A stretch of DNA of 64,000 nucleotides from assembly GCA_963920635.1 (NCBI GenBank), contig OY987307.1:2294001-2358000 (forward strand). Reading direction: 5' to 3'. Source of the DNA: Pseudeuparius sepicola. Lineage: Eukaryota > Arthropoda > Insecta > Coleoptera > Anthribidae. The position numbers and the translations under genes are program-made. Below, piece after piece: positions 4,407 through 56,400 of this stretch. Position 1 is the first letter of the stretch. Each line of letters opens with the position of its first letter. Below the pieces are notes generated by a model, which saw only the letters and a list, made by a program, of their open reading frames with translations, was not told the origin of the DNA and did no database searches.

Positions 4407-7118
4407 CCAAACTTTGCGGGATGCTGGACAGACCAAACGGCCTGAATTTTCCATCGAGGCCAACTGGAATGAAATATGACCAACGAATTATTGGTTACAT
4501 CGGCAGAGTCCGATAATACAATGTTTGATTAATTCGACAACTCTAGCATCTCTATTTTTTATGTAGGCGAGACGAAGTGTTATAAAAATCGAGACAGCAA
4601 AGCATGAATGCTATATGTATAGCCTGAACCGACACTATTATTAAAGACCCGAGCATGACGTCATATTTCATTGTTGTTTACGGATTGGGGTGGTGCCACT
4701 CGACGAAAAAAATGGCGATTTATTATAGGATATTAGGATTCATTTATTCTGTGGTTATTGGCATGTCAGTTACTGACGTTTAAAATGTCCCAAACTTTGC
4801 GGGATGCTGGACAGACCAAACGGCCTGAATTTTCCATCGAGGCCAACTGGAATGAAATATGACCAACGAATTATTGGTTACATCGGCAGAGTCCGATAAT
4901 ACAATGTTTGATTAATTTGACAACTAGCATCTCTATTTTTTATGTAGGCGAGACGAAGTGTTATAAAAATCGAGACAGCAAAGTGTGAATGCTATATGTA
5001 TAGCCTGAACCGACACTATTATTAAAGACCCGAGCATGACGTCATATTTCATTGTTGTTGACGGATTGGGGTGGTGCCACTCGACGAAAAAAATGGCGAC
5101 TTATAGATTATAGGGGGGTATTCTGTGGTTATTGGTATGTCAGTTACTGACGTTTAAAATGTCCCAAACTTTGCGGGATGCTGGACAGGCCAAACGGCCT
5201 GAATTTTCCATCGAGGCCAACTGGAATGAAATGTGACCAACGAATTATTGGTTACATCGGCAGAGACCGATAATACAATGTTTGATTAATTTGACAACTC
5301 TAGCATCTCTATTTTTTATGTAGGCGAGACGAAGTGTTATAAAAATCGAGACAGCAAAGCGGGAATGCTATATGTATAGCCTGAACCGACACTATATTAA
5401 AGACCCGAGCATGACGTCATATTTCATTCTTGTTTACGGATTGGGGTGGTGCCACTCGACGAAAAAAATGGCGACTTATTATAGGTTATAGGGGGGTATT
5501 CTGTGGATATTGGTATGTCAGTTACTGACGTTTAAAATGTCCCAAACTTTGCGGGATGCTGGACAGACCAAACGGCCTGAATTTTCCATCGAGGCCAACT
5601 GGAATGAAATATGACCAACGAATTATTGGTTACATCGGCAGAGTCCGATAATACAATGTTTGATCAATTTGACAACTCTAGCATCTCTATTTTTTATGTA
5701 GGCGAGACGAAGTGTTATAAAAATCGAGACAGCAAAGCGGGAATGCTATATGTATAGCCTGAACCGACACTATTATTAAAGACCCGAGCATGACGTCATA
5801 TTTCATTGTTGTTTACGGATTGGGGTGGTGCCACTCGACGAAAAAAATGGCGACTTATTATAGGATATTAGGATTCATTTATTCTGTGGTTATTGGCATG
5901 TCAATGGCGACTTATTATAGATTATAGGGGGGTATTCTGTGGTTATTGGTATGTCAGTTACTGACGTTTAAAATGTCCCAAACTTTGCGGGATGCTGGAC
6001 AGACCAAACGGCCTGAATTTTCCATCGAGGCCAACTGGAATGAAATGTGACCAACGAATTATTGGTTACATCGGCAGAGTCCGATAATACAATGTTTGAT
6101 TAATTTGACAACTCTAGCATCTCTATTTTTTATGTAGGCGAGATGAAGTGTTATAAAAATCGAGACAGCAAAGCGTGAATGCTATATGTATAGCCTGAAC
6201 CGACACTATTATTAAAGACCCGAGCATGACGTCATATTTCATTGTTGTTTACGGATTGGGGTGGTGCCACTCGACGAAAAAAATGGCGACTTATTATAGA
6301 TTATAGGGGGGTATTCTGTGGTTATTGGTATGTCAGTTACCGACGTTTAAAATGTCCCAAACTTTGCGGGATGCTGGACAGGCCAAACGGTCTGAATTTT
6401 CCATCGAGGCCAACTGGAATGAAATGTGACCAACGAATTATTGGTTACATCGGCAGAGTCCGATAATACAATGTTTGATTAATTTGACAACTCTAGCATC
6501 TCTATTTTTTATGTAGGCGAGACGAAGTGTTATAAAAATCGAGACAGCAAAGCGTGAATGCTATATGTATAGCCTGAACCGACACTATTATTAAAGACCC
6601 GAGCATGACGTCATATTTCATTGTTGTTTACGGATTGGGGTGGTGCCACTCGACGAAAAAAATGGCGACTTATTATAGATTATAGGGGGGTATTCTGTGG
6701 TTATTGGTATGTCAGTTACTGACGTTTAAAATGTCCCAAACTTTGCGGGATGCTGGACAGGCCAAACGGCCTGAATTTTCCATCGAGGCCAACTGGAATG
6801 AAATGTGACCAACGAATTATTGGTTACATCGGCAGAGACCGATAATACAATGTTTGATTAATTTGACAACTCTAGCATCTCTATTTTTTATGTAGGCGAG
6901 ACGAAGTGTTATAAAAATCGAGACAGCAAAGCGGGAATGCTATATGTATAGCCTGAACCGACACTATTATTAAAGACCCGAGCATGACGTCATATTTCAT
7001 TGTTGTTTACAGATTGGGGTGGTGCCACTCGACGAAAAAAATGGCGACTTATTATAGGATATTAGCATTCATTTATTCTGTGGTTATTGGCATGTCAGTT
7101 TCTGACGTTTAAAATGTC
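4407..7118 (+). repeat. Tandem satellite array, seven units of about 379 bp
   Basis: The unit starting CCAAACTTTGCGGGATGCTG begins at 4407, 4790, 5164, 5542, 5978, 6357 and 6736. The spacings are 374-383 bp, except for one of 436 bp. Each unit carries a perfect TGACGTCA palindrome (CRE-like, 4656-4663 in the first unit), the palindrome GTGGTGCCAC, and the block GTAGGCGAGACGAAGTG. Two tail variants exist: type A reads GATATTAGGATTC (units 1 and 7, with GCATTC in 7) and type B reads GATTATAGGGGGG. The long fourth unit carries A followed by B, which explains its extra roughly 57 bp. Short frames inside the array are by-products of the repeat. Confidence 0.92.
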
Positions 7119-8129
7119 CCAAATTTTAAACGATTTGCCTTCTTTTTACGGTAACGAATTGTCTTTGCGTCCAGTATTTAGCAGCATAGAGAAATGAATC
7201 ATAGAGAAATTAATAAATAAATAAATAAATATTATAATAAATATTCAATTGTCTATGCCTTTGTCTATGTTTAGCAGTTTTATCCTTTTGACACAGCTTT
7301 TATAGGTAGATTTGTTTGTGATAACATGGAATTTCCATGCACATCAAGAAAATGTTATGCACACTGCACAAACCATTAGGTGAATTGCAGAAGAATAAAC
7401 ACTAAGTAGGTATTTTGGAATTATGGGATGATCTGATCAACCAGCTGAAGAAGCGAAAATTCTAGATATTATTTTGGAAGAGTATTTTGTAACGTATGCA
7501 AGAATGAAAATAGAAAATTTTGTTTATAGCTTCAAAGCGAACCAATAATAGTCCTCCATATAAAGAAGAAACTGAAAAATCTAATGCGTTTTATGCTTTC
7601 ACATACTACAACTAGCCATGGACTGCGTTTCAAACCAAACGGTACCAAATACTCTGCTTGCGACTCCGCTTTTCTTAAGAAAATGTAAGGAAATATGCCA
7701 TGTGAACTTGCCAAATTAGAGGGACATAACAAACACAGACACATTTGCATGTTTTTATTTTATAAAAGATTCTGCAACGATGGTATTTTAACTAAAATCA
7801 CCGTGTAAATTTGTTTCGTCGTGTGGTAGCCAGAGCGCTATGCACAGGTCTTTAATAGTGTTGGTCCAGGTATATCAGACAAGGTTGTCGAATATGTTAC
7901 GTTAAGTACCTTGGGGAAGTTTCTCGTCTTTATTCTTGGAAGCGCACATGTAGACCCTGGCGACCCAAGTGCAAAATCTGCTGTCCACTATCCCCAATCC
8001 TACGGGTACCAGGACGTCTTGTACGAGTCCCAACCAGAGCGCCACGCCGGCGACAGGCCATGGCGATACCAGACGAGGTTGGCAGCAGAACACCTGTAAC
8101 AATCAATCAATCAATCAATCAATTACTTT
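7119..8129. other. No gene; inverted copy of a 54-kb repeat and a microsatellite
   Basis: About 7535-7870 is the reverse complement, with substitutions and gaps, of about 54065-54345. Shared blocks include CATGTGAACTTGCCAAATTAGAGG and the CGTCGTGTGG segment. An (AATA)n run lies near 7205-7230 and a (TCAA)n run near 8100-8123. A GC-richer stretch at 7905-8100 has only short frames on both strands. Confidence 0.5.
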
Positions 8130-11482: not shown

Positions 11483-11996
11483 TATACAGGATGTTTTTTT
11501 TAGGTCTACCACCGCGATTTTCTCGCTCATTTTGCGGCCTACAAAAAAAACGTAAGAAACAAAAATGTGGCAATTTTGGGCAGCTAAGTGGTGCTGCAAA
11601 AGAAATCGGCATCCATGGCCAACTTGTCGCGCAATATTAAAAAAACCTCAAATTGAGCAAAACTATTAATGGCCGTGGAATGTTTATTTTAAGAGACAGT
11701 TAAAAACTTTTATATTGATGGCACTAAGAAGCTTTATGCAAAAGTGTACTCAGATAGTTTCAGAGAGCCGAAGACCCTGCATAATTTGCTGAAACTATCT
11801 GAGCACCTGGGTGGATAAAGCTTCTCAGTGCCATTTTTTAATAATGCGCGACAAGTTGGCCATGGATGCCGATTTTTTTTTGCAGCGCCACTTAGCTGTC
11901 CAAAATTGCAACATTTTTGTTTCTTACGTTTTTTTGTAGGCCGCAAAATGAGCGAGAAAATCGCGGTGGTAGACCTAAAAAAATCATCCTGTATAT
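11483..11996. mobile_element. 0.5-kb foldback element, CAGGATGATTTTTTTAGG family, copy 1
   Basis: TATACAGGATG at the left and CATCCTGTATA at the right begin arms of about 200 bp that include AGGTCTACCACCGCGATTTT and GCGGCCTAC blocks and their inverses. The family recurs at 25554-26030 (full length, diverged) and as an arm fragment at about 43288-43375. The TA-containing ends fit the mariner-type foldbacks here. There is no coding content. Confidence 0.85.
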
Positions 11997-12540: not shown

Positions 12541-12954
12541 TTGTTTTATAAAACACGAATACAATTTGTAAACTGTCAATAATTATTACTATAATTTGGC
12601 ATTTGTCTTCGATGGCAACCAATGATCCAAGGAATAATCCCTCACAAAAAAGACTCAGTTCTAAACGAACGGTTGGAGCGAACATATAACATTTATACTT
12701 CGTTGGAATCGGAAAAATGCGTAGAATTCAATAATCCAAAAATATACAAGGTGTTTATATTAAAAAACATAATTTATGTCTGCCACGGCTTTGTAGAACA
12801 CACTGTATAAGGTCCAATAGCGTCACAAAAAACTTTGTATTAGTATCTAAAACTCTTGTAAAAAAACTTTTTTCTTACCTCAAAAACTAACAAGTTAAGG
12901 TGGGTGTCAATCTCAGAGAAATAATTGGTTATTTCTCTGAGGTGTCAATTTATA

Positions 12955-13995
12955 GCGAGCCACCCTGTACGTATACAGTGTGGATAGAAATTGTGGAATA
13001 TTGCTTATATTTCTTAAAATATTCCTCATATGAAAAACTTGTTTTAATAAAAGTGTTAGGGGAAATTATTTCCCGATTAGTAATATCAAGCAATCTTTTG
13101 TAGCACAAAAAAATGTGGTTGCCATGGTAACCGACTTGATTTTTTTTAAATGGCACCATACACGTTTTTTGGTAAAAATTGATACATTGGAACTTTCTGA
13201 ATACGATACAATACAATTTTAATGGGGTCACATAAGAAAAAAATACAAAAAAAAGTTTTCTATTATGCTATTGACAATGTTTATCAAAATAATTATTAAC
13301 ATCAAGTTAGTCATGCCAAAATCAGAACAATGGGAAACTGTCACTAGCTGTCAGTTGCTTGTAATTGTGTGCATTGTTACAGTAAACGTACTTTTTTTAC
13401 TCAATTTTCTGTGTACTTAAGTACTTAGTAAGTTATAATGGCGCTTGAATTAAGTGAAACGGAAAGAATACAGGTTAACGTACTATAAGTACTTAAGTAC
13501 ACAGAAAATTGAGTAAAAAAGTACGTTTAGTGTAACAATGTACACAGTTACACAGCTAGTGACAGTTTCGCATTGTTCTGATTTTGGCATGGCCAACTTG
13601 ATGTTAATAATTATTTTGATAAACATTGTCAATAGCATAATAGAAAAATTTTTTTTTTTGGTATTTTTTCTTATGCGACCCCATTAAAATTGTATTGTAT
13701 CGTATTCACAAAGTTCCAATGTATCGATTTTCACAAAAAAAAATATGGTGCCATTTAAAAAAATCAAATCGGTTACCACGGCAACCACATTTTTTTGTGC
13801 TACAAAAGATTGCTTGATATTACTAATCGGGAAATAATTTCCCCTAACACTTTTATTAAAACAAGTTTTTCATATGAGCACAGACATATATAGCTTCACT
13901 AAGCTATATATGTCTGTGATATGAGGAATATTTTAAGAAATATAAGCAATATTCCACAATTTCTATCCACACTGTATACGTACAGGGTGGCTCGC
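12955..13995. mobile_element. 1.04-kb foldback element with TA target site
   Basis: GCGAGCCACCCTGTACG and CGTACAGGGTGGCTCGC form the ends, each bordered by TA. The arms of about 450 bp match over long stretches, including the CTTAAAATATTCCTCATATG and GGGGAAATTATTTCCC blocks. The centre near 13440-13470 contains ATGGCGCTTGAATTAAGTG. A 40-bp hairpin insertion (13879-13918) interrupts only the right arm. Confidence 0.88.
13879..13918. mobile_element. 40-bp perfect hairpin insertion with 7-bp TSD
   Basis: CACAGACATATATAGCTT, a CACT spacer, and the exact 18-bp reverse complement make a perfect stem-loop. ATATGAG occurs immediately before (13872-13878) and after (13919-13925). The mirrored left arm of the host palindrome (near 13020-13035) shows the uninterrupted site with a single ATATGAG equivalent. 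The insertion of 40 bp plus a 7-bp duplication can therefore be read directly. Confidence 0.85.
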
Positions 13996-14263
13996 TAAGA
14001 TTGCTTGATATCACTAAACGGAAAATAATTTCCCCTAACACTTTTTTTAAAACATGTTTTTGATACTAGGAATATTTTAAGAAATATAAGCAATAAGTGG
14101 TTTTTGGTTATGTTCTTGTTTATTTTTGTCATTTTAAAGAATATTTATATTTATTTTTGTTATTTTTAACTACACATATTTTTATTTAACGGTACCTTTT
14201 AATTTATCTTTATCTTGTGCCTTGTGCCTTCCCTAATACAAAAGTGTGCGCACACTAGGGTAT
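13996..14263. other. Partial repeat of the preceding palindrome arm
   Basis: About 14000-14095 repeats, with changes, part of the right arm of 12955-13995 (the TTGCTTGATATCACTAAACGG and ATATTTTAAGAAATATAAGC segments). It is a truncated second copy that ends near 14095. Confidence 0.6.
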
Positions 14264-14611: not shown

Positions 14612-15878
14612 GTAATGTAAAAGGGGGCATTTTTGTTTAGAAATTTAGATAAAATAAAATATGTAAAATTAGGTAGGTATAATGATAAAATTTAAAGTAT
14701 TTAATAACAAACGTGAACTGTCAGGTACCGAGGTGGATTGGTCGAGGAACTGTCCGGTAACTCGCATATAGTTGGTTTTGTCCTATAAATAAAAAAAAAT
14801 AAGTGTGAGTGTCAATTCTGATGATTTTGCCTAACATAGCTTATTTGTCTTATTAAATAATTCAACGAACTAATCCAATACGCGGTGCGCCTCACAATCA
14901 ACTAGTACTGAGGAGTGCAATGAATATGAAGGGATTTAACACGCGACATATTCCATCCAGTTACTAGCACTTTGACCCGAAAGTCCAAAGCTGAGTGGTG
15001 CAGTATTAACAACTATGTTCGTACGAGTTATTATCATCAACTTACATTATTTATTCTCAACTCATTAATAATTAAATCGTCAAATATTACATAAACCCGA
15101 TAATTCAAGAGATATAGGCAAGATACTCAAGAAAAGACACTCAGTGATCAAGCTCACCTGGATTACAAGATTTTAACAACACAAATTTAGTTCTGCATTT
15201 CCAACCACTGGAATACCACTTTCTTTCACCGACGTTGATACAATTATGCGTCTTATAATTTTTACGAAACCCAACAGTGCCTAGTGTTTATAATAAGTAT
15301 AACAGTTCGTGCCTCTTGTAGGGAATTCTGTATCGATAACGCCGAGTTAACATAAACTATCGACGGTCGGTTCTACCTACGCGTCCGCTTATAATATTTT
15401 CTTTCGGTCTCGATTTGGCTTAGAATAATTAAATAAAATATACAGGGACTTACAGTAAGAATTTATTTTTTTTTAACATCTTTTCGTAAAACTAGTAGGT
15501 ACCAAATTCTAAAGGTAAAAAGTGAAACGCATGATAAGCAAGACTAAAACGGTTCAATCCTTGGCGGTTGTTTATGTTAACACCATTAGGACGAGTGGGT
15601 GTCACATAAGCCCTTGCATTCAGAATTCAGACAGAATTTTACGTTCTCATTTATATGCAGTATCTTGTCGAGTGCGTGTGGTTTTATTTTATTTAAAATT
15701 TGAGACCTACAGCGATTTTACCCATTGTGATTGTATTGCTGTTCTTCAAATTAGGTGAGTCTAACTCAGGGGCAAACGAATTTTCCCTTTTATACCTGAA
15801 TTTTATTAACTGATGACTAATTATTTAATTACTGGTTATAATGTGGAAATATTGTTTAGGCCTTATTATCTGCCGATC
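14612..15878. other. Apparently unique, non-coding
   Basis: No palindrome, element end or supported coding frame is seen. Short frames such as that at 15522-15758 have no recognisable motif. This is one of the longest stretches without obvious repeats and leads up to the hairpin cluster. Confidence 0.4.
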
Positions 15879-16010
15879 AAATAATAGACACAGTCGTTCG
15901 TGTCACCCAGACGCTGTCGTACTTATATTCATATTCCTGTCGTTCGGAATATCGGGCATTGACGTTCATGCCAACATACTGTCGTTCAGTATTCAGGCCG
16001 CCTATTATTT
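15879..16010. other. Cluster of four hairpins sharing a GTCGTTC loop inside an outer stem
   Basis: Four stem-loops have different stems around nearly the same loop. They are GACAC/AGTCGTTC/GTGTC (15887-15904), ATATTCC/TGTCGTTC/GGAATAT (15931-15952), GGCAT/TGACGTTC/ATGCC (15955-15972) and ATACT/GTCGTTC/AGTAT (15976-15992). A degenerate TGTCGTAC sits between the first two (15915-15922). AAATAATA (15879-15886) pairs with TATTATTT (16003-16010), so the group could fold as a closed multi-arm structure. No known RNA family is recognised. It could be a structured RNA, a protein-binding array, or a remnant of an element with terminal hairpins. Confidence 0.75.
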
Positions 16011-16385
16011 ATAATCAGTAAAAGTAAAAATAAAAATATTAAAACCATAATCAATATTCCATAATTTTTAAGACGTATTTATTTACGTAAACAAATTCTT
16101 TTGCTCAGGTAAATTTTTTTTTCAGGTAAATAATTCAGCCACTCGACAAATGACAGCCAGCCTATTTATTTGATAAGACAATCAGACAATCAATCTTTTA
16201 GTTGTAGTAAGTAATTAATTTATTTTATTTAAGTATATAAATATTATCCTTTTGTTTATTTTATGGGATCGATAAAATTTAATTATCATTGATTATATTC
16301 ATTTAATTTTGTTTAAAAAAAAACAGACCTCTGAGTTTTGGGGTCTTACACCTTTATACTCAGTTTCTTATATTAAAATCTACCT

Positions 16386-19891: not shown

Positions 19892-21424
19892 ATACAGGGT
19901 GAGTTTTTTTCGATGACCACTACTGAAACTAGCAGAGCTAGAACAAACGTTAAATGGGGAAAGAATTGCAGTTTTGAATGCTCGATCTAATGCCCCTATT
20001 GGATTTTTTTAAAAAAGTGCATGGCGCTCACTAGATATTTTGAAGAGTGATTTTTTGCTAATTCATCGGATCTCTGTAGCTCCGTTATTTCTGATTATAC
20101 AGAAAAACTGTAGAGACAAAAATTGTAGATAATTTTGGGCTTAATAAGACAATCTAATCAAATTTTTTTATGTTGTTTGTGATTTTTGAGATATGACATA
20201 AACTTGTGTTTTTTTTTATGTAAATCATAGTTGGCTGTGGCCTTATCAAATCGGCCATTTTTTAAGCTTTCCAAAGATATAATACTAGGCATATTTATTA
20301 TAAAAAATAAAAGAGCTATGGCTAATTTTCTGTTTTTTTTTAATTTTCACAGTCAGCCATGGAATATTTTCATAATTTTACGTTCTATTTTATAATAAGA
20401 CATAGGTAGGTATTTCAAACTTTCAACTCTTTTATTTTTAGCTGGTAACAAAATGTAACAAAATAAAACAAAAATTATCATGATGGAGCTCCACCGCATA
20501 ATTATTTGCCCGTAAGCAATTACCTAGATCAGCTCTATTCAAATAGTTGGATAGGGAGAAATAGACCTATTTCCTGGCCGCCCCGATCCCCCGATTTGTC
20601 TGTTTTGGATTTCTTTTTGTGGGGAACAGTACAAAATACAGTATGAGACAATTGTTAAATTAAGAGCAGCTGTTTTAGAACCAATTGCCAGTATTGACAG
20701 GCGCTCTCTAAGAAAGGAGACAAATTCAGCTTTAAAAAGATGCAATATTTGCATAAATAATAATGGTGGATTGTTTGAACACCTTTTTTATTTTAAAAGG
20801 TGACCTTTTAAAATAGTAATAATTTGAATTTGAGTTTTTAATTTTTGTTTTATTTTGTTACATTTTGTTACCAGCTAAAAACAAAATATTATAAAGTTTG
20901 AAGTATGTCTAATTATAAAATAGAACGCAATTATGAAAATGTTCCATGGCTGACTAAGTGAAAATAAAAAAAAAAACAGAAAATTAGCCATAGCTCTTTT
21001 ATTTCTTATAATAACTATGCCGAGTATTATATCTTTGGAAAGCTAAAAAAAATGGCCGATTTGATAAGGCCACAACCAACTATATGATTTACATTAAAAA
21101 AACACAAGTTTATGTCATATCTCAAAAATCACAAACAACATAAAAAATTGGATTAGATTAACTCATTAACCCCAAAATTATCTACAATTTTTGTCTCTAC
21201 AGTTTTTCTGTATAATCAGAAATAACGGAGCTACAGAGATCTGATGAAATAGCAAAAAATCACTGTTCAAAATATCTAGTGAGCGCCATGCATTTTTTTT
21301 AAATCCAAAAGGGGCAGTAAATTGTGCATTCAAAACTGCAATTATTTCCCCATTTAACCTTTGTTCTAGCTTTGCTAATTTCCGAGATCTCCATAGTGGT
21401 CATCGAAAAAACTCACCCTGTATG
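19892..21424 (+). mobile_element. 1.5-kb long-TIR mariner-type (DD41D) element, internally deleted
   Basis: TATACAGGGTGAGTTTTTTT at the left and its inverse near 21424 start arms of about 570 bp. The arms converge on a spacer (about 20470-20840) that encodes the C-terminal part of a Tc1/mariner transposase (see 20476-20805). This links the ACAGGGTG foldback architecture in this window to a transposase family. The N-terminal HTH region and the first catalytic Asp are absent. Confidence 0.85.
20476..20805 (+). pseudogene. Mariner-type transposase C-terminal remnant, DD41D spacing
   Basis: The frame from 20476 reads YHDGAPPHNYLPVSNYLD, then SWIGRNRPISWPPRSPDL and LDFFLWG. These are the second and third catalytic blocks of an IS630/Tc1/mariner DDE/D transposase. 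There are 41 residues between the Asp of HDGAPPH (codon 20482-20484) and the Asp of LDFFLWG, the DD41D spacing I associate with the rosa-like group. A stop after GTVQNTV is followed in another frame by KLRAAVLEPIASIDRRSLRK and NNNGGLFEHLF, the usual C-terminal tail. This places one frameshift near 20640. The first catalytic Asp and the DNA-binding domain are missing, so the enzyme is dead. Confidence 0.82.
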
Positions 21425-26429: not shown

Positions 26430-27003
26430 AGTATCGGAAATCGATACTGAAAAAATATCGATAAAATCGATAAATCGATCTTATCGATAAAATCGATCTT
26501 ATCGATAAAATCGATCTTATCGATATAATCGATCCTATCGATAAAATCGATCTTATCGATATAATCGATCCTATCGATAAAATCGATCTTATCGATATAA
26601 TTAATCATATTGATAAAATCGATATAATCAATTTTATTTAAGAAGCTAGACAAAAAAGGCCGAGCGGCTTTCTGCGGGCGCGGTCTAGACGCAATGGGTG
26701 CAGCAATTTCCTTTATTCCTATCAAAAGATAGATATAATTGGAAAGATCGGTAATATCAAAAATATCGATAAAATCGAAAAGATCGATAAAATCGAAAAG
26801 ATCGATAAAATCGAAAAGATCGATAAAATCGAAAAGATCGATAAAATCGAAAAGATCGATAAAATCGAAAAGATCGATAAAATCGGAAAGATCGAAAATA
26901 TCGATAAAATCGATAATATCGATATTTCGATTTATCGAAATTGAATATCGAGTATCGATAAAATCGATAGTATCGATACTTTCGATTTTATCGATATTTT
27001 GTC
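26430..27003. repeat. GATAAAATCGA simple-sequence array in two blocks
   Basis: The left block (about 26430-26640) repeats 18-bp phrases such as AAAATCGATCTTATCGAT. The right block (about 26745-27003) repeats AAAATCGAAAAGATCGAT. A unique insert of about 100 bp (26640-26745) separates them. TATCGATA, the DRE/BEAF-type site, recurs many times. Frames across the array encode Ile/Asp/Phe or Ser/Ile/Lys repeats and are not genes. Confidence 0.9.
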
Positions 27004-31182: not shown

Positions 31183-32700
31183 GCATTAGAAAAAAAATGA
31201 ACGGAAAAAAGGAATTTTCAGTATAATTGTCAATTGTCTCAAACCATTTTAAAAATATTTAGTATCATACATCATGGTATTTGCAATGAAAAGTGATTTC
31301 AAAATCTGCAAAAAATCCAGGCCCGTATTTAAAAAAATAAAGTTGAAGATGGTTTCTCAAAAACGAAACGTTGTAGAACAATTCTAAAAACTAACTAACT
31401 TAGTTTATTTTTACTTCGAAAACTTAATTTTTTTAAATACGACCCTGTCCGGTTAGTGTTTTCCTCTGTTGTTGTATATAGCAAACAGTGTCGCATTGTG
31501 TTTTGGAGTAAATTCTTCGCTTTTTCTAATTGTGAGAAGAAAGCTTTAAGCCAATGCAACCAATAACTTTTGCCATTTATTAATTGCAACAATACATTCG
31601 TCATTTGAAAAATCACCCTCCATTTCTAATAATACAAATTGCAGTGGGAGTGATGGCAAATAATGATAAGGGGTTGGTTTCGTTGTTTCAAAGCCTTCTA
31701 GATGGAGGATTATTATTTTCGTATGTGACTGTTATTAGTCATTGCCGTCTTTTTTTTGGTTTTCCGATTTAAAGATAAGTTGTAAGTTAAATCGTTGACA
31801 ATACTGATTAATATTTAGACTTCTTATTATTAATTACAAGGCCGCATTAGAAAAAAATGAGTGGAAAAAAGGAATTTTCAGTATAATTGTCAATTGTCTC
31901 AAACCATTTTAAAAATATTTAGTATCATACATCATGGTATTTGCAATGAAAAGTGATTTCAAAATCTGCAAAAAATCCAGGCCCGTATTTAAAAAAATAA
32001 AGTTGAAGATGGTTTCTCAAAAACGAAACGTTGTAGAACAATTCTAAAAACTAACTAACTTAGTTTATTTTTACTTCGAAAACTCAATTTTTTTAAATAC
32101 GACCCTGTCCGGTTAGTGTTTTCCTCTGTTGTTGTATATAGCAAACAGTGTCGCATTGTGTTTTGGAGTAAATTCTTCGCTTTTTCTAATTGTGAGAAGA
32201 AAGCTTTAAGCCAATGCAACCAATAACTTTTGCCATTTATTAATTGCAACAATACATTCGTCATTTGAAAAATCACCCTCCATTTCTAATAATACAAATT
32301 GCAGTGGGAGTGATGGCAAATAATGATAAGGGGTTGGTTTCGTTGTTTCAAAGCCTTCTAGATGGATTTTTATTTATTTTTTATTATCGTATGTGACTCT
32401 TATTAGTCATTGCCGTCTTTTTTTTGGTTTTCCGATTTAAAGATAAGTTGTAAGTTAAATCGTTGACAATACTGATTAATATTTAGACTTCTATTATTAA
32501 TTACAGGGCCGCATTAGAAAAAAATGAGTGGAAAAAAGGAATTTTCAGTATAATTGTCTCAAAACATTTTAAAAATATTTCGTGTCATACATAATGGTAT
32601 TTGTAATGAAAAGTGCTTTCAAAATCTGCAAAAAAAATTGAGGTCCGTATTTAAAAAAATAAAGTTGAAATGGTTTCTCAGAAACGAAATGTTGTAGAAC
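31183..32700 (+). repeat. Tandem duplication, 2.3 copies of a 661-667-bp unit
   Basis: GCATTAGAAAAAAA starts units at 31183, 31844 and 32511. Units 1 and 2 are nearly identical, giving the same 73-codon antisense frame at 31395-31616 and 32055-32276. They differ by a short insertion near 32367. The third unit is truncated after about 190 bp and more diverged. This indicates a recent second duplication, or concerted evolution. Confidence 0.9.
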
Positions 32701-43623: not shown

Positions 43624-43917
43624 TTATAAAGTTCTTAAGTTTAAATGAAATGGATAAATTACTTCATCTGCATGAATTTCTGTTCCATAGTGAATGTTCA
43701 TTAGAGCCAAACCATTAAGTCTGTTTTCACTTGTAGTGTTTCGTAAATAGTTTTTCAGTCTCCTTAAGCTCGAGAAAGACCTTTCTGGGGTAGCAGTGGA
43801 TACAGGAATGGTAGCCAAGATTTGTAGCAATGTGTAAATATTAGGATAAAGGTTTTTATCGCACATATCTAGGCATTCCAAACTAGATTTCGGGGTAGGC
43901 AGTCTTCTTATCAGCAT
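43624..43917 (-). pseudogene. hAT transposase C-terminal dimerisation domain remnant
   Basis: The frame reads LYPNIYTLLQILATIPVSTA then TPERSFSSLRRLKNYLRNTT and ENRLNGLALMNIHY. This is the canonical hATC motif (P-V-S-[ST]-A-x-x-E-R-x-F-S-x-L), in the form seen in zinc-finger MYM-type 1-like hAT proteins. The domain itself is intact. It is joined upstream, out of frame (+1), to the short N-terminal piece at 43883-44125. Everything between, including the RNase-H-like DDE core, was lost in an internal deletion. Confidence 0.9.
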
Positions 43918-44125
43918 GCAAGGTAGCTGAAGCTTTGATAGCTAAATCCAAATTTGTTTCTTTATTAGAAACCCGTTGACCTTGACTACACCACTTTTTC
44001 CAGTAGTCCATACCTTTAGGTTTATCACCCTTCCTTTTTTTCCCCTCCATTTTTCGACAGTAATAATGATTCACGTATCTATCCTTAACAAGGTCATCGA
44101 ATAACAGCGCACTAAAATTACTCAC
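43883..44125 (-). pseudogene. hAT transposase N-terminal remnant
   Basis: The likely start is the internal Met giving MEGKKRKGDKPKGMDYWKKW (ATG near 44051), with a further 25 open codons upstream. The peptide is Lys/Trp-rich and ends at TAYPEI, where the frame shifts relative to the C-terminal piece. It sits about 190 bp downstream of a TATA box at 44239-44247. Reading it as the hAT N-terminus is inference from position. Confidence 0.65.
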
Positions 44126-52284: not shown

Positions 52285-52519
52285 GAAACATAGACTCGCT
52301 CACTCGCCCGCCAGTACAGACTTTATTGCCGGCTGGCCAATAGCAAGCCGATCGCGTGCGTGTCACGCTCTAGCCATGCGACAACTTGTGTTTAGTTTGA
52401 ATAGAGTATACTTATTTTTATTATTATCACTGGTTATCCTCACACTGTAGGTACTCGCGCTTTAGGTCTTTGAGAGAGTCGCGCTACTGTATAATATGTA
52501 ACTCCAAACATGTACTCAC
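52285..52519. other. Intronic spacer 3' of the last detected receptor exon
   Basis: GC-richer DNA between the truncated palindrome and the receptor exon donor. GTGAGTACATG, the donor of 52520-52739 on the minus strand, lies at 52509-52519. No further exon was recognised downstream in gene sense. Confidence 0.5.
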
Positions 52520-52739
52520 AATGACCGGCAGATGGTAGAACATGTAGCAGACGATGAGCACCGGGTGGATGGTCTCCAGTCCGGTCCTGCGCATCTCCTC
52601 TTCGTCCTCCTCCTCCTTCTTGGTCTTGACGATGCACGGCCGCCTCGAATTGGTCGAGCTGACCGTCGTCGACACGTTGGACAACGCCTCGCTGTTCGGC
52701 GGCCACGAGTCCTTCGTGAAGTAGTTGTTGTTCTCGTTT
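52520..52739 (-). CDS. Rhodopsin-like GPCR (orphan), exon with ICL3 and TM6 (partial gene)
   Basis: Third exon in gene order (minus strand). The acceptor CCAG is at 52740 and the donor GTGAGT directly follows 52520. It enters with two bases of a split Arg codon and leaves in phase 0, covering joined residues 157-230. The first part is polar and acidic/basic (YFTKDSWPPNSEALSN, TKKEEEDEEEMRRTG), fitting a long intracellular loop 3. It ends with HPVLIVCYMFYHLPVI, which resembles TM6, with Cys, aromatic residues and Pro as in the C-W-x-P region of class A receptors. TM7 with an NPxxY-like motif should lie in the next exon, which was not found. Codons are GC-rich compared with the flanks. The subfamily is not recognised. 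Confidence 0.75.
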
Positions 52740-52832
52740 CTGGAAAAGGAAAAATTGACGTGGAGAATGTTTCCTAAGCGCGCGCCTAAAATTTCAGGGT
52801 GCTCAAACACCAGAGATACGGAGGGGTAAGAT

Positions 52833-54014: not shown

Positions 54015-54966
54015 TATATCTCTGTCAAACAAACGTTGCTGTCGCTAAGTGACATTGCAAACGCGTTAGACTTGGACCAGCACTATATTAAAGCGCATAG
54101 CGCTGTTTCAAGCGATCGCCACTGGCGCCACACGACGAAACAAATTTACACGGTGGTTTAATGTTAAAACACCATTGTTGCAGAATCTTTTATAAAATAA
54201 AAACATGCAAATGTGCCTGTTACAACGAAGTTAATATTCAAAATAAATTAAAATATTTGTTTGTTAAGTCCCTCTAATTTGACAAGTTCACATGGCATAT
54301 TTCCATACATTTTCTTAAGAAAAGCGAGTCTAAAAAGCAAGCAAGAGTATTTGGTACCTTTTAGACCGTCAGACAGTGACAGATTTTCCTTACTGATTTT
54401 CTCATTTATACCTTGGAGAGGGTTGAAAGGTAAATCGATGCTGAGTCGGAAAATAGTAATTTTAAGTTTGGCCCCCGGGGAAAACATATGAAAAATTCGA
54501 TTTTTCAAAACAGAAAAAAGGTACTAATTCTCACGTATGCCATGTTCACCGTATGATTTATTATACTATTCCGACCTCGAAAACCCAAAGGCATAAGTGT
54601 AGTGTGTGGAAAAAGGGTTGAATTAAGGGTTTGGCAGATCACACAAAAAATGATTTGGTTTACTGACTATTGATTGGCAGAAGTGACGCGTGGGGAAAAT
54701 GCACTTTTGGGTCGGAAAATAAATCGGAAATTTTTTTTCGCCAACTGATTTTGTCAGGGATAAAATGAATTGCAATAAAACGTTCTATAGTTTCAGAGGC
54801 ATAAGTGCAGAATAAGTTGCTATCCGCATATTTTTTCCAACTTTAACACCCTGTAACTTTTTTCTAAGGAGATATAGTTTATACGAGAAAGTGTCCTTAT
54901 TTTTTGAAGATCTATGACCTGTTAAAGTCCTGCTACAAAAAACTGATTCACCCTGTATTTGGAAAT
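54015..54966. other. Intronic repeat fragments
   Basis: 54065-54345 is the inverse of 7535-7870. 54370-54620 is the inverse of parts of 21437-21775. 54790-54960 resembles 3970-4200 and ends in CACCCTGTATTTGG. No exon was recognised. Confidence 0.55.
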
Positions 54967-55083
54967 TAAGTCAGTGAGTTACACAAAATTGAGCTACGCC
55001 CCTGAACTGTGACTAATTCTATAATATTTACGAGTTCTTCCCCCTTACATCGCACGCATTCTGCCGTAAGGAGGACTTAATAG
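54967..55083 (-). repeat. Inverted 110-bp copy of the adjacent element's left end
   Basis: AAGTCAGTGAGTTACACAAAA through GCCGTAAGGAGGACT is the reverse complement of about 55088-55200. The inverted pair meets at TTAATAGTATAG. The orthologous left end at 33476 has no such inverted copy. Confidence 0.85.
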
Positions 55084-55796
55084 TATAGTCCTCTTTACGG
55101 CAGAATGCGTGCGACGTAAGGGGGAAGAACTCGCAAATATTACAGAATTAATCACAGTTCAGGGGCGTAGCTCAATTTTGTGTAACACAATGACTTAATT
55201 TTCATATAATTGTTGTTTAATTTATTGTTAATATTATTCTTAACGGTGATGCCTTAGACTATGGAGGAAGGCAAACCCTTATAACATTGGCAATTATTTC
55301 TCGTGCTTGAGAATGCAACGTTCTTCCCTGTTTACTCATTTTGCACACGTTAACTCCCGAACATACGAAACGCCACTGAGCTCTCTGAACCGGCGGAAAA
55401 AACTTGCCAGCGGCCTAAATAATGAGGTCTGTATGGTAGCCCAAATACGCAGTTAACTTTACGTACTATAGAAACAGGCACAAAACGCCCTGGCTAACTG
55501 ATTTTGTCAGCCGACTCCTTCGCAGAAGTGCTGTGTTGCCGTATTTCAAAGGCGATAGTAGACGCGACGATGTTGAAAAAATATAATAGGTGTTTTATCA
55601 CACCGCGTTAAAAATAAATGATAAACAAAAATGGGTAAGTGGTCCCGTGATGCGAGCTTTATTTTTTCGGTATAACAGAGTTCAGAAATTCGGCTTCAAT
55701 ATGATATTCGCCAATAAATAACGACTACTCGTATAGGAAATCTCGCAACGCTGCCCGCATTCTTTAGAAACGTTTTCTTTCGTGCTTTGGACTATA
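55084..55796. mobile_element. 0.7-kb repeat with TATAGTCC ends, copy 2, intronic
   Basis: Direct-orientation partner of 33476-34158. Two extra short segments are present (near 55276 and 55300-55325), and ACTTGT-like bases are missing near 55703. It lies in the intron between the 55950 and 52739 exons. Confidence 0.78.
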
Positions 55797-55949
55797 AACA
55801 TAGAAATGTTGTCAATAAAAGTTTCTACTAAAAACGAAAAACAGCGTTTCCCATAACAAAATCACTGTTTACACATACATTCATTCAAATTATAACTCTT
55901 TTAAAAGTTTTCTGCAGTGTTCCAATAAAAATTAAACAGCATCCCTCAC

Positions 55950-56225
55950 CTGTGTATTGTGTAGGTGTCGTAATAGTTCCTGTTGTTGTCGTGGACGTTC
56001 GTGTTGATCCCGTGGTAGTTGTTGCTGATCTCGCTCAGATCCGAACTGCTCTTCTTCATGTAGGTGAACCCGTGCTTCTTGGTCTTGTAGTAGTTGACGC
56101 AGATCATTATGAAACATACGAAGGACACCGTGGCCAAGAACACGTGTAGAACTATTATGAACACGTTGAATTTGATGTCTAACTCGAACGGGAGGAAGGC
56201 GCAAGGGTTGAAGTCGAAGTTATCA
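55950..56225 (-). CDS. Rhodopsin-like GPCR (orphan), exon with ECL2, TM5 and start of ICL3
   Basis: Second exon in gene order. The acceptor TTTTTTTTCAG precedes 56225 and the donor GTGAGG follows 55950. It enters completing a split Ser codon and leaves with two bases of the next, for joined residues 65-156. It reads DNFDFNPCAFLPFELDIKF, then a strongly hydrophobic NVFIIVLHVFLATVSFVCFI and MICVNYYKTKKHG. This fits extracellular loop 2 with its conserved Cys, TM5, and the basic start of intracellular loop 3. A polar Asn/Ser/Tyr-rich stretch follows (SNNYHGINTNVHDNNRNYY). Frame and phase match both neighbouring exons, the best evidence that these belong to one gene. The ligand is unknown. Confidence 0.8.
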
Positions 56226-56400
56226 CTGAAAAAAAATTATTCTAATATTATTATGACCTAATCTCAAATTTAAATAGGCTAATACACGACTTTTCCGTTT
56301 TTAGTAGCTATTTAATAAGTTGTATTGATTTAGGTATTTAAAATATACGCAAATTATTCTTTGTAATAATAAGTTTTAGTTGCTTCCTATGAGTACAAAT

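Follow-up and report, generated by a model that had tools for sequence, protein, structure and literature searches.

Consecutive hairpins with nearly the same loop but unrelated stems occupy a short segment of the window (the whole stretch of DNA analyzed, 64,000 nucleotides). Such a cluster raises the questions of whether it could arise by chance and, if it could not, what keeps the loops alike while the stems differ.

Hairpin units in the window

The four perfect hairpins of the preliminary description, with the loops AGTCGTTC, TGTCGTTC, TGACGTTC, and GTCGTTC, are all present, as units 1, 3, 4, and 5, respectively (Table 1). The loop heptamers of units 0–5, which start at 15872, 15893, 15916, 15939, 15961, and 15981, form a series of six units with a core repeat spacing of 20–27 bp. 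Unit 0, the remnant of unit 2, and the outer stem GGCCT/AGGCC were absent from that description. The loop of unit 0 is diverged (GCCGATC). The complete forms of the two imperfect units are observed in other copies of the sequence, which are described below. Unit 0 is a perfect palindrome with nine standard pairs in the L225, L229, and L236 copies, and unit 2 reads GACGCT-GTCGTTC-AGTGTC with one G·U pair in the L225, L227, L228, and L229 copies. The window copy is a damaged array, in which unit 2 is shortened and unit 0 is mismatched.

Table 1 Features of the hairpin array and its carrier in the window
Feature	Positions	Strand	Remark
Solo LTR of a Ty3/gypsy-type retrotransposon, about 897 bp	15454–16350	+ (coding direction of RT in the C1 copy)	Based on copies, ends, duplications, and the C1 pair
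Outer stem, 5′ half, GGCCT	15859–15863	+	Found in the window sequence; closing stem of the six hairpins in the C1 fold
Unit 0, TATTATCTG-CCGAT-CAAATAATA	15864–15886	+	Single C·A mismatch on the plus strand
Unit 1, GACAC-AGTCGTTC-GTGTC	15887–15904	+	Perfect hairpin
Unit 2 remnant, GACGC-T-GTCGTAC	15910–15922	+	3′ arm lost; read against other copies
Unit 3, ATATTCC-TGTCGTTC-GGAATAT	15931–15952	+	Perfect hairpin
Unit 4, GGCAT-TGACGTTC-ATGCC	15955–15972	+	Perfect hairpin
Unit 5, ATACT-GTCGTTC-AGTAT	15976–15992	+	Perfect hairpin
Outer stem, 3′ half, AGGCC	15995–15999	+	Letters present in the window; pairs with GGCCT in the C1 fold

The loop heptamers of units 1, 3, 4, and 5 are 93% alike, whereas the five loop-proximal letters of their 5′ arms are 27% alike. 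When all six units are compared, the values are 82% for the loops and 32% for the arms (23% for shuffled arms).

The preliminary description enclosed the hairpins in a different outer stem of 8 bp, AAATAATA/TATTATTT, which did not withstand comparison with controls or copies. On the plus strand, 22% of shuffles and 1226 of 3192 window controls have a stem of at least this length. The 5′ side of the stem coincides with the 3′ arm of unit 0, and its perfect form needs A at 15880, where the seven other copies keeping the site have G (a G·U pair is possible). This stem was noticed because the window copy is damaged.

Comparison of the cluster with chance expectation

A chance cluster is the default reading for an array that was chosen by eye from 64 kb. 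In 2245 dinucleotide-shuffled windows, the best cluster contained one hairpin 1202 times, two hairpins 1041 times, three hairpins twice, and never four. The top cluster of the same scan in the real window is not the array but five ATCGAT satellite hairpins at 26473–26580, which have stems in common. A strict scan, requiring an exact 6-mer common to the loops and unlike stems, found three of the array's four hairpins, a number equalled in 3 of 815 shuffles, as the chance reading would have it. In a looser scan, which accepted loops up to two mismatches apart and one G·U pair, again with unlike stems, four hairpins occurred in 3 of 2044 shuffles, and the five hairpins found on the minus strand of the window were never matched. 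Finally, the five heptamers were kept in place and the rest of the local letters were permuted 300,000 times. No stem was formed 293,651 times, one stem 6,292 times, two stems 57 times, and three stems never, while the real array has four. It should be noted that the loop motif and the units were taken from the array itself, and to that extent the counts were made with hindsight; the test of the stems is independent of the loop motif.

In an alignment of the four stems anchored at the loop, pairing holds in 20 of 20 cells, ten cells are doubly changed, and each of the five pair columns has changes on its two sides. One row was given an N to keep the register; without the N, a gap was misplaced by MAFFT and 78.9% of the cells were paired. 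The real alignment was reached by none of 500 shuffles in cells paired, cells doubly changed, or covariation score, and by 65 and 120 of 500 in measures counting pairs and pair types. The improbability that the preliminary description ascribed to a constant loop on independent stems is thus borne out by the shuffles and the fixed-loop permutations. Since the dinucleotide shuffles, the permutations, the looser scan, the additional units in register, and the fold of the C1 copy (see below) all contradict chance, that explanation is scarcely credible. The array is not a chance cluster.

The array lies in an LTR of a Ty3/gypsy-type retrotransposon

The array was originally placed in otherwise unique DNA, which is wrong. 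The carrier is a dispersed repeat with at least 11 copies, including that in the window, in the 769-Mb host genome, a number that is a lower bound from pattern searches. When at most two mismatches are allowed, a 20-letter part of unit 4 occurs at 12 places in this genome, and ten of them (window included) belong to one element. The eleventh copy (C10:20453775), which is near full, came from a three-loop pattern and was found after the alignment of the seven near-full copies, which are 92–96% alike. Homologous multi-hairpin loci, which the preliminary description asked for in related species, are present in the host genome itself. The three-loop pattern occurs at three places, all in this LTR family (seven for the reversed control). 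The two-loop pattern by itself is not enriched, with 174 matches and 161 for the reversed control. Fifteen loci outside the family (L213–L220 and L248–L254) comprise 13 two-loop places from among the matches listed and two unit 4 matches outside the element. They never have more than two hairpins with a common loop, whereas family copies give two to four, and their matches to the LTR are short (best E, 0.002).

Most copies have the termini TGTAAGA and TCTTACA, with the TG and CA of an LTR at the extremities. The window copy, L233, and L257 have a changed left end, L227 has a changed right end, and L232 lacks the left end. The window copy has A in place of the first T, and no target duplication is visible there. 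Perfect 4-bp target duplications, the length for a Ty3/gypsy LTR, flank 6 of the 11 insertions (L226, L228, L229, L233, L236, and L257) and read GTAA, AACT, ATAA, CTTT, GTAT, and CTAA. In three insertions, L227, L231, and the C1 pair (CACG/CATG), three of the four letters match.

On contig C1, two right LTR ends lie on the same strand, separated by 6139 bp. The upstream LTR is internally deleted with most of its middle gone, and the array-bearing LTR (L225) is the 3′ LTR. The region between them matches RVT_1 (5.7e-37) and RT_RNaseH_2 (2.5e-18) in the + direction of the window, and this is the one LTR pair found around a same-strand RT–RNaseH. The RT is in two frames split by a stop. The frame before it, which we take to be gag-like from its position, has no Pfam match. 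Integrase_H2C2 and DUF5641 pieces also lie before the RT (L246:868-2358, minus strand) and are presumably a nested BEL/Pao fragment; after the RT, the pieces scanned have no integrase match. The LTR pair around the RT indicates that the window element is a solo LTR of a Ty3/gypsy-type retrotransposon.

It is highly improbable that the carrier is instead a non-autonomous Ginger-like DNA transposon, although TGTNR ends and 4-bp duplications are common to Ginger and gypsy elements (PMC2836005). The inverted ends here are 7 bp, in contrast to the TIRs of about 40–270 bp in Ginger1 and 50–180 bp in Ginger2 given in the available part of that paper, and none of the six perfect duplications is CCGG or CCGT or lies within RTATAY, as described there. 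The pair of LTR ends with the RT between them on C1 largely refutes this carrier.

Fold of the intact copy

In the C1 LTR, six hairpins lie within the GGCCT/AGGCC stem, unit 0 having nine pairs and unit 2 being intact. Five of the loops are GTCGTTC or GACGTTC, and one is GCCGATC. On the plus strand, the MFE structure and the centroid agree on six hairpins enclosed by the outer stem (z −4.72, 0 of 200 shuffles). The minus strand gives z −5.41 (0 of 200 shuffles), with some units re-paired. The sliding-window z values at the array (plus/minus) are −4.6/−5.8 in L225, −5.7/−3.5 in L236, and −3.4/−4.0 in L229. The lowest z of all six profiles (three LTR copies on two strands) is located at the array, while windows off the array or partly on it range from about −3.2 to +2.2.

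The window copy folds moderately in the comparison with shuffles proposed in the preliminary description (z −1.43, −1.80, −1.74, and −2.90), because this copy is damaged. Its folding energy ranks 17th (minus) and 35th (plus) among 320 window/strand samples, behind long inverted repeats, so that energy alone is insufficient to single out the window array.

A reading of the RNA from the minus strand seemed to be favored by the window copy alone. The minus strand there forms a 15-bp outer stem with G·U pairs (0.19% of shuffles, 20 of 3192 window controls), unit 0 has a z of −4.67 on the minus strand versus −0.08 on the plus strand, and the array has a minus-strand z of −2.90. This reading was dropped on the evidence of the other copies. 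The letter at 15880 is found in the window copy alone, unit 0 is palindromic in the three copies given above, and the G·U pair of unit 2 reads on the plus strand, being C·A on the minus strand, though the C1 minus strand still folds as described. The plus strand is also the sense direction of the carrier according to the RT of C1.

Both strands of the array fold, as expected of strand-symmetric palindromes, and a role at the DNA level is therefore permitted. The array could be a row of spaced sites in the LTR for a host DNA-binding protein, acting as an enhancer, silencer, or insulator. The recurrence of the core at its 20–27-bp spacing would suit such sites, as would the TCAGT downstream at 16015–16019, which we take to be initiator-like. 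Repeated protein sites in a gypsy-type retroelement are familiar from the Su(Hw) insulator of Drosophila gypsy, whose layout as a site array is similar; the Su(Hw) DNA sites, however, are without self-complementary flanks and have another core. DNA sites leave unexplained why each of the unlike flanks is self-complementary, and we consider this role unlikely, though it is a serious alternative.

Variation among the copies

In the ten copies that were mapped, six units are observed only in L225 and L229, and in the latter one loop is altered and unit 5 is weakened. Five units are found in L236, and three or four in the other seven. In L257, outside the ten-copy map, unit 4 is one letter shorter. 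Among the seven near-full copies, 11 of 487 stem letters vary, compared with 160 of 5360 in the rest of the LTR (Fisher p 0.48); the numbers are 9 of 290 for loop letters and 8 of 104 for spacers. Since the stems are as variable as the remainder of the LTR, the case for selection rests on the comparison of unit with unit in the array, and selection, if any, is confined to the active lineage.

The preliminary description offered two explanations. Selection on structure with a loop-specific ligand is supported by the contrast between like loops and unlike arms, by the pairing of the stems, and by the intact copy folding exactly as the array, but not by the comparison among copies. Snap-back copying is still conceivable, but the 11 copies give it no direct support. 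A related possibility is that the array is a functionless mutational product, namely a tandem repeat whose arms were homogenized by template switching during replication. Such switching can create and perfect stems (PMC8794818), and the stem variation among copies agrees with it. However, a neutral process should let the loops drift as much as the arms, which are far less alike. Template switching could have made or polished the stems but alone would not hold the loops constant, and a purely mutational origin appears rather improbable.

Comparison with known structured elements

The statement that the array matches no structured RNA holds for Rfam 15, with which the window copy was scanned. 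There were no matches at the gathering threshold, and five and three rows far below it (E ≥1.5) around the array. The Rem-responsive element (RmRE) of MMTV and the constitutive transport element (CTE) of MPMV are structured cis-acting export RNAs that overlap the 3′ LTR, and the RmRE is predicted to have multiple stem-loops (PMC12789967). The array resembles them in its predicted structured fold in the 3′ LTR of C1, and a role in export here would be by analogy. It differs from them in that the available text of that paper describes no structure in which one loop recurs six times on different stems, and in that its host is an insect gypsy-type element.

Several hairpins with a constant loop on differing stems are bound by capsid in satellite tobacco necrosis virus (AXXA loops) and HBV (RGAG loops) (PMC3593212, PMC7612645). 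As far as the available parts of these papers describe them, the viral packaging signals are dispersed along the genomes, whereas the array has six hairpins in about 140 nt and another loop. In the Smaug recognition element, a protein reads a short loop, CNGGN0-3, on a non-specific stem (PMC4053848). The GTCGTTC and GACGTTC loops of the array lack the CNGG of this element as given in the available text.

GTCGTTC as a whole word was not found in the open-licence PMC literature. The search for the loop array gave 89 stretches in viral contigs, 28 in a second viral scan, and at least 119 in genome contigs; phage records had no match. The hairpin filter left two single hairpins and no array among the 89 viral stretches, and a single tandem repeat (L112), in which two or more four-pair stems occur, among the at least 119 genome-contig stretches. 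Four loci new in the second viral scan lie outside the hairpin filter. In L095, L103, and L118, from a Coriobacteriales bin (Jx357_bin18), CTGTCGTTCCCGC is repeated, in some cases as CTGTCGTTCCCGCGAAGGCGGGAACCC palindromes; this bacterial repeat is unlike the array.

Other features of the window

Several other repeats were observed in the window. A near-perfect palindrome at 54956–55208, with 122-nt arms that are 93% complementary and 9 nt apart, has the strongest fold among the samples (z about −26). Large fold-back elements with nested inverted repeats are located at 12953–14095, 19925–21394, and 11483–11995. A satellite-like array at 4407–7127 has seven copies with a period of about 379 bp, and the region 26457–27000 consists of strongly palindromic, ATCGAT-rich 9/18-bp satellite arrays. 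A tandem duplication with 660–668-bp spacing lies at 31191–32492, its two stretches being 99% and 97% identical. The window has the character of insect nuclear DNA. A fragment of a hAT transposase at 43624–43941 has its best relative in the firefly Pyrocoelia pectoralis, with 94% identity over 80% of the query, which is suggestive of a beetle.

The minus-strand frames 52484–52831 and 55946–56236 are probable exons of an unnamed protein. The former matches the unnamed protein P0042 (71% over 63 aa), and the latter resembles the start of P0042 by eye only, its own search giving no match. These frames were considered as a gene context of the array and set aside as unrelated to it, because the array is in a mobile element.

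Proposed role of the array

We propose, with a probability of about 0.5, that the array is a cis-acting structured element of an insect Ty3/gypsy-type LTR retrotransposon that serves as a multivalent RNA docking site. Like loops on differing but paired stems are the expected mark of a structure that is read through its loop. The array-bearing part of the LTR would be transcribed, and the RNA would fold into the six-hairpin array. Retroviral-type RNA carries the U3 and R regions of an LTR at its 3′ end, which would place the array in the 3′ portion of the transcript. The repeated loop may be bound by a protein, either Gag of the element or a host RNA-binding or export factor, though we know of no binder of this loop. 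Several copies of the loop would provide avidity for export, packaging, or translation control, with the loops as the binding face and the stems free to vary. The array probably originated from one hairpin that was tandemly duplicated, after which binding kept the loop constant and the stems changed in a pair-preserving way. Dissimilar stems may in addition make deletion between the repeats less likely.

Structured control elements are familiar in or near vertebrate retroviral LTRs. No element of the array's form is known to us from insect gypsy-type LTRs. We tentatively suggest, with some doubt, that six hairpins with one loop on unlike stems and a loop-specific protein reader represent a novel class of cis-element in insect LTR retrotransposons.

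The locus illustrates that an apparently single-copy RNA structure can be a decayed mobile element, better copies of which show the real fold. Hairpin arrays with a constant loop and variable stems are built by engineers. If its loops bind protein, the array of this retrotransposon family would be a natural counterpart of the engineered arrays and a compact test of repeat stability and of the reader.
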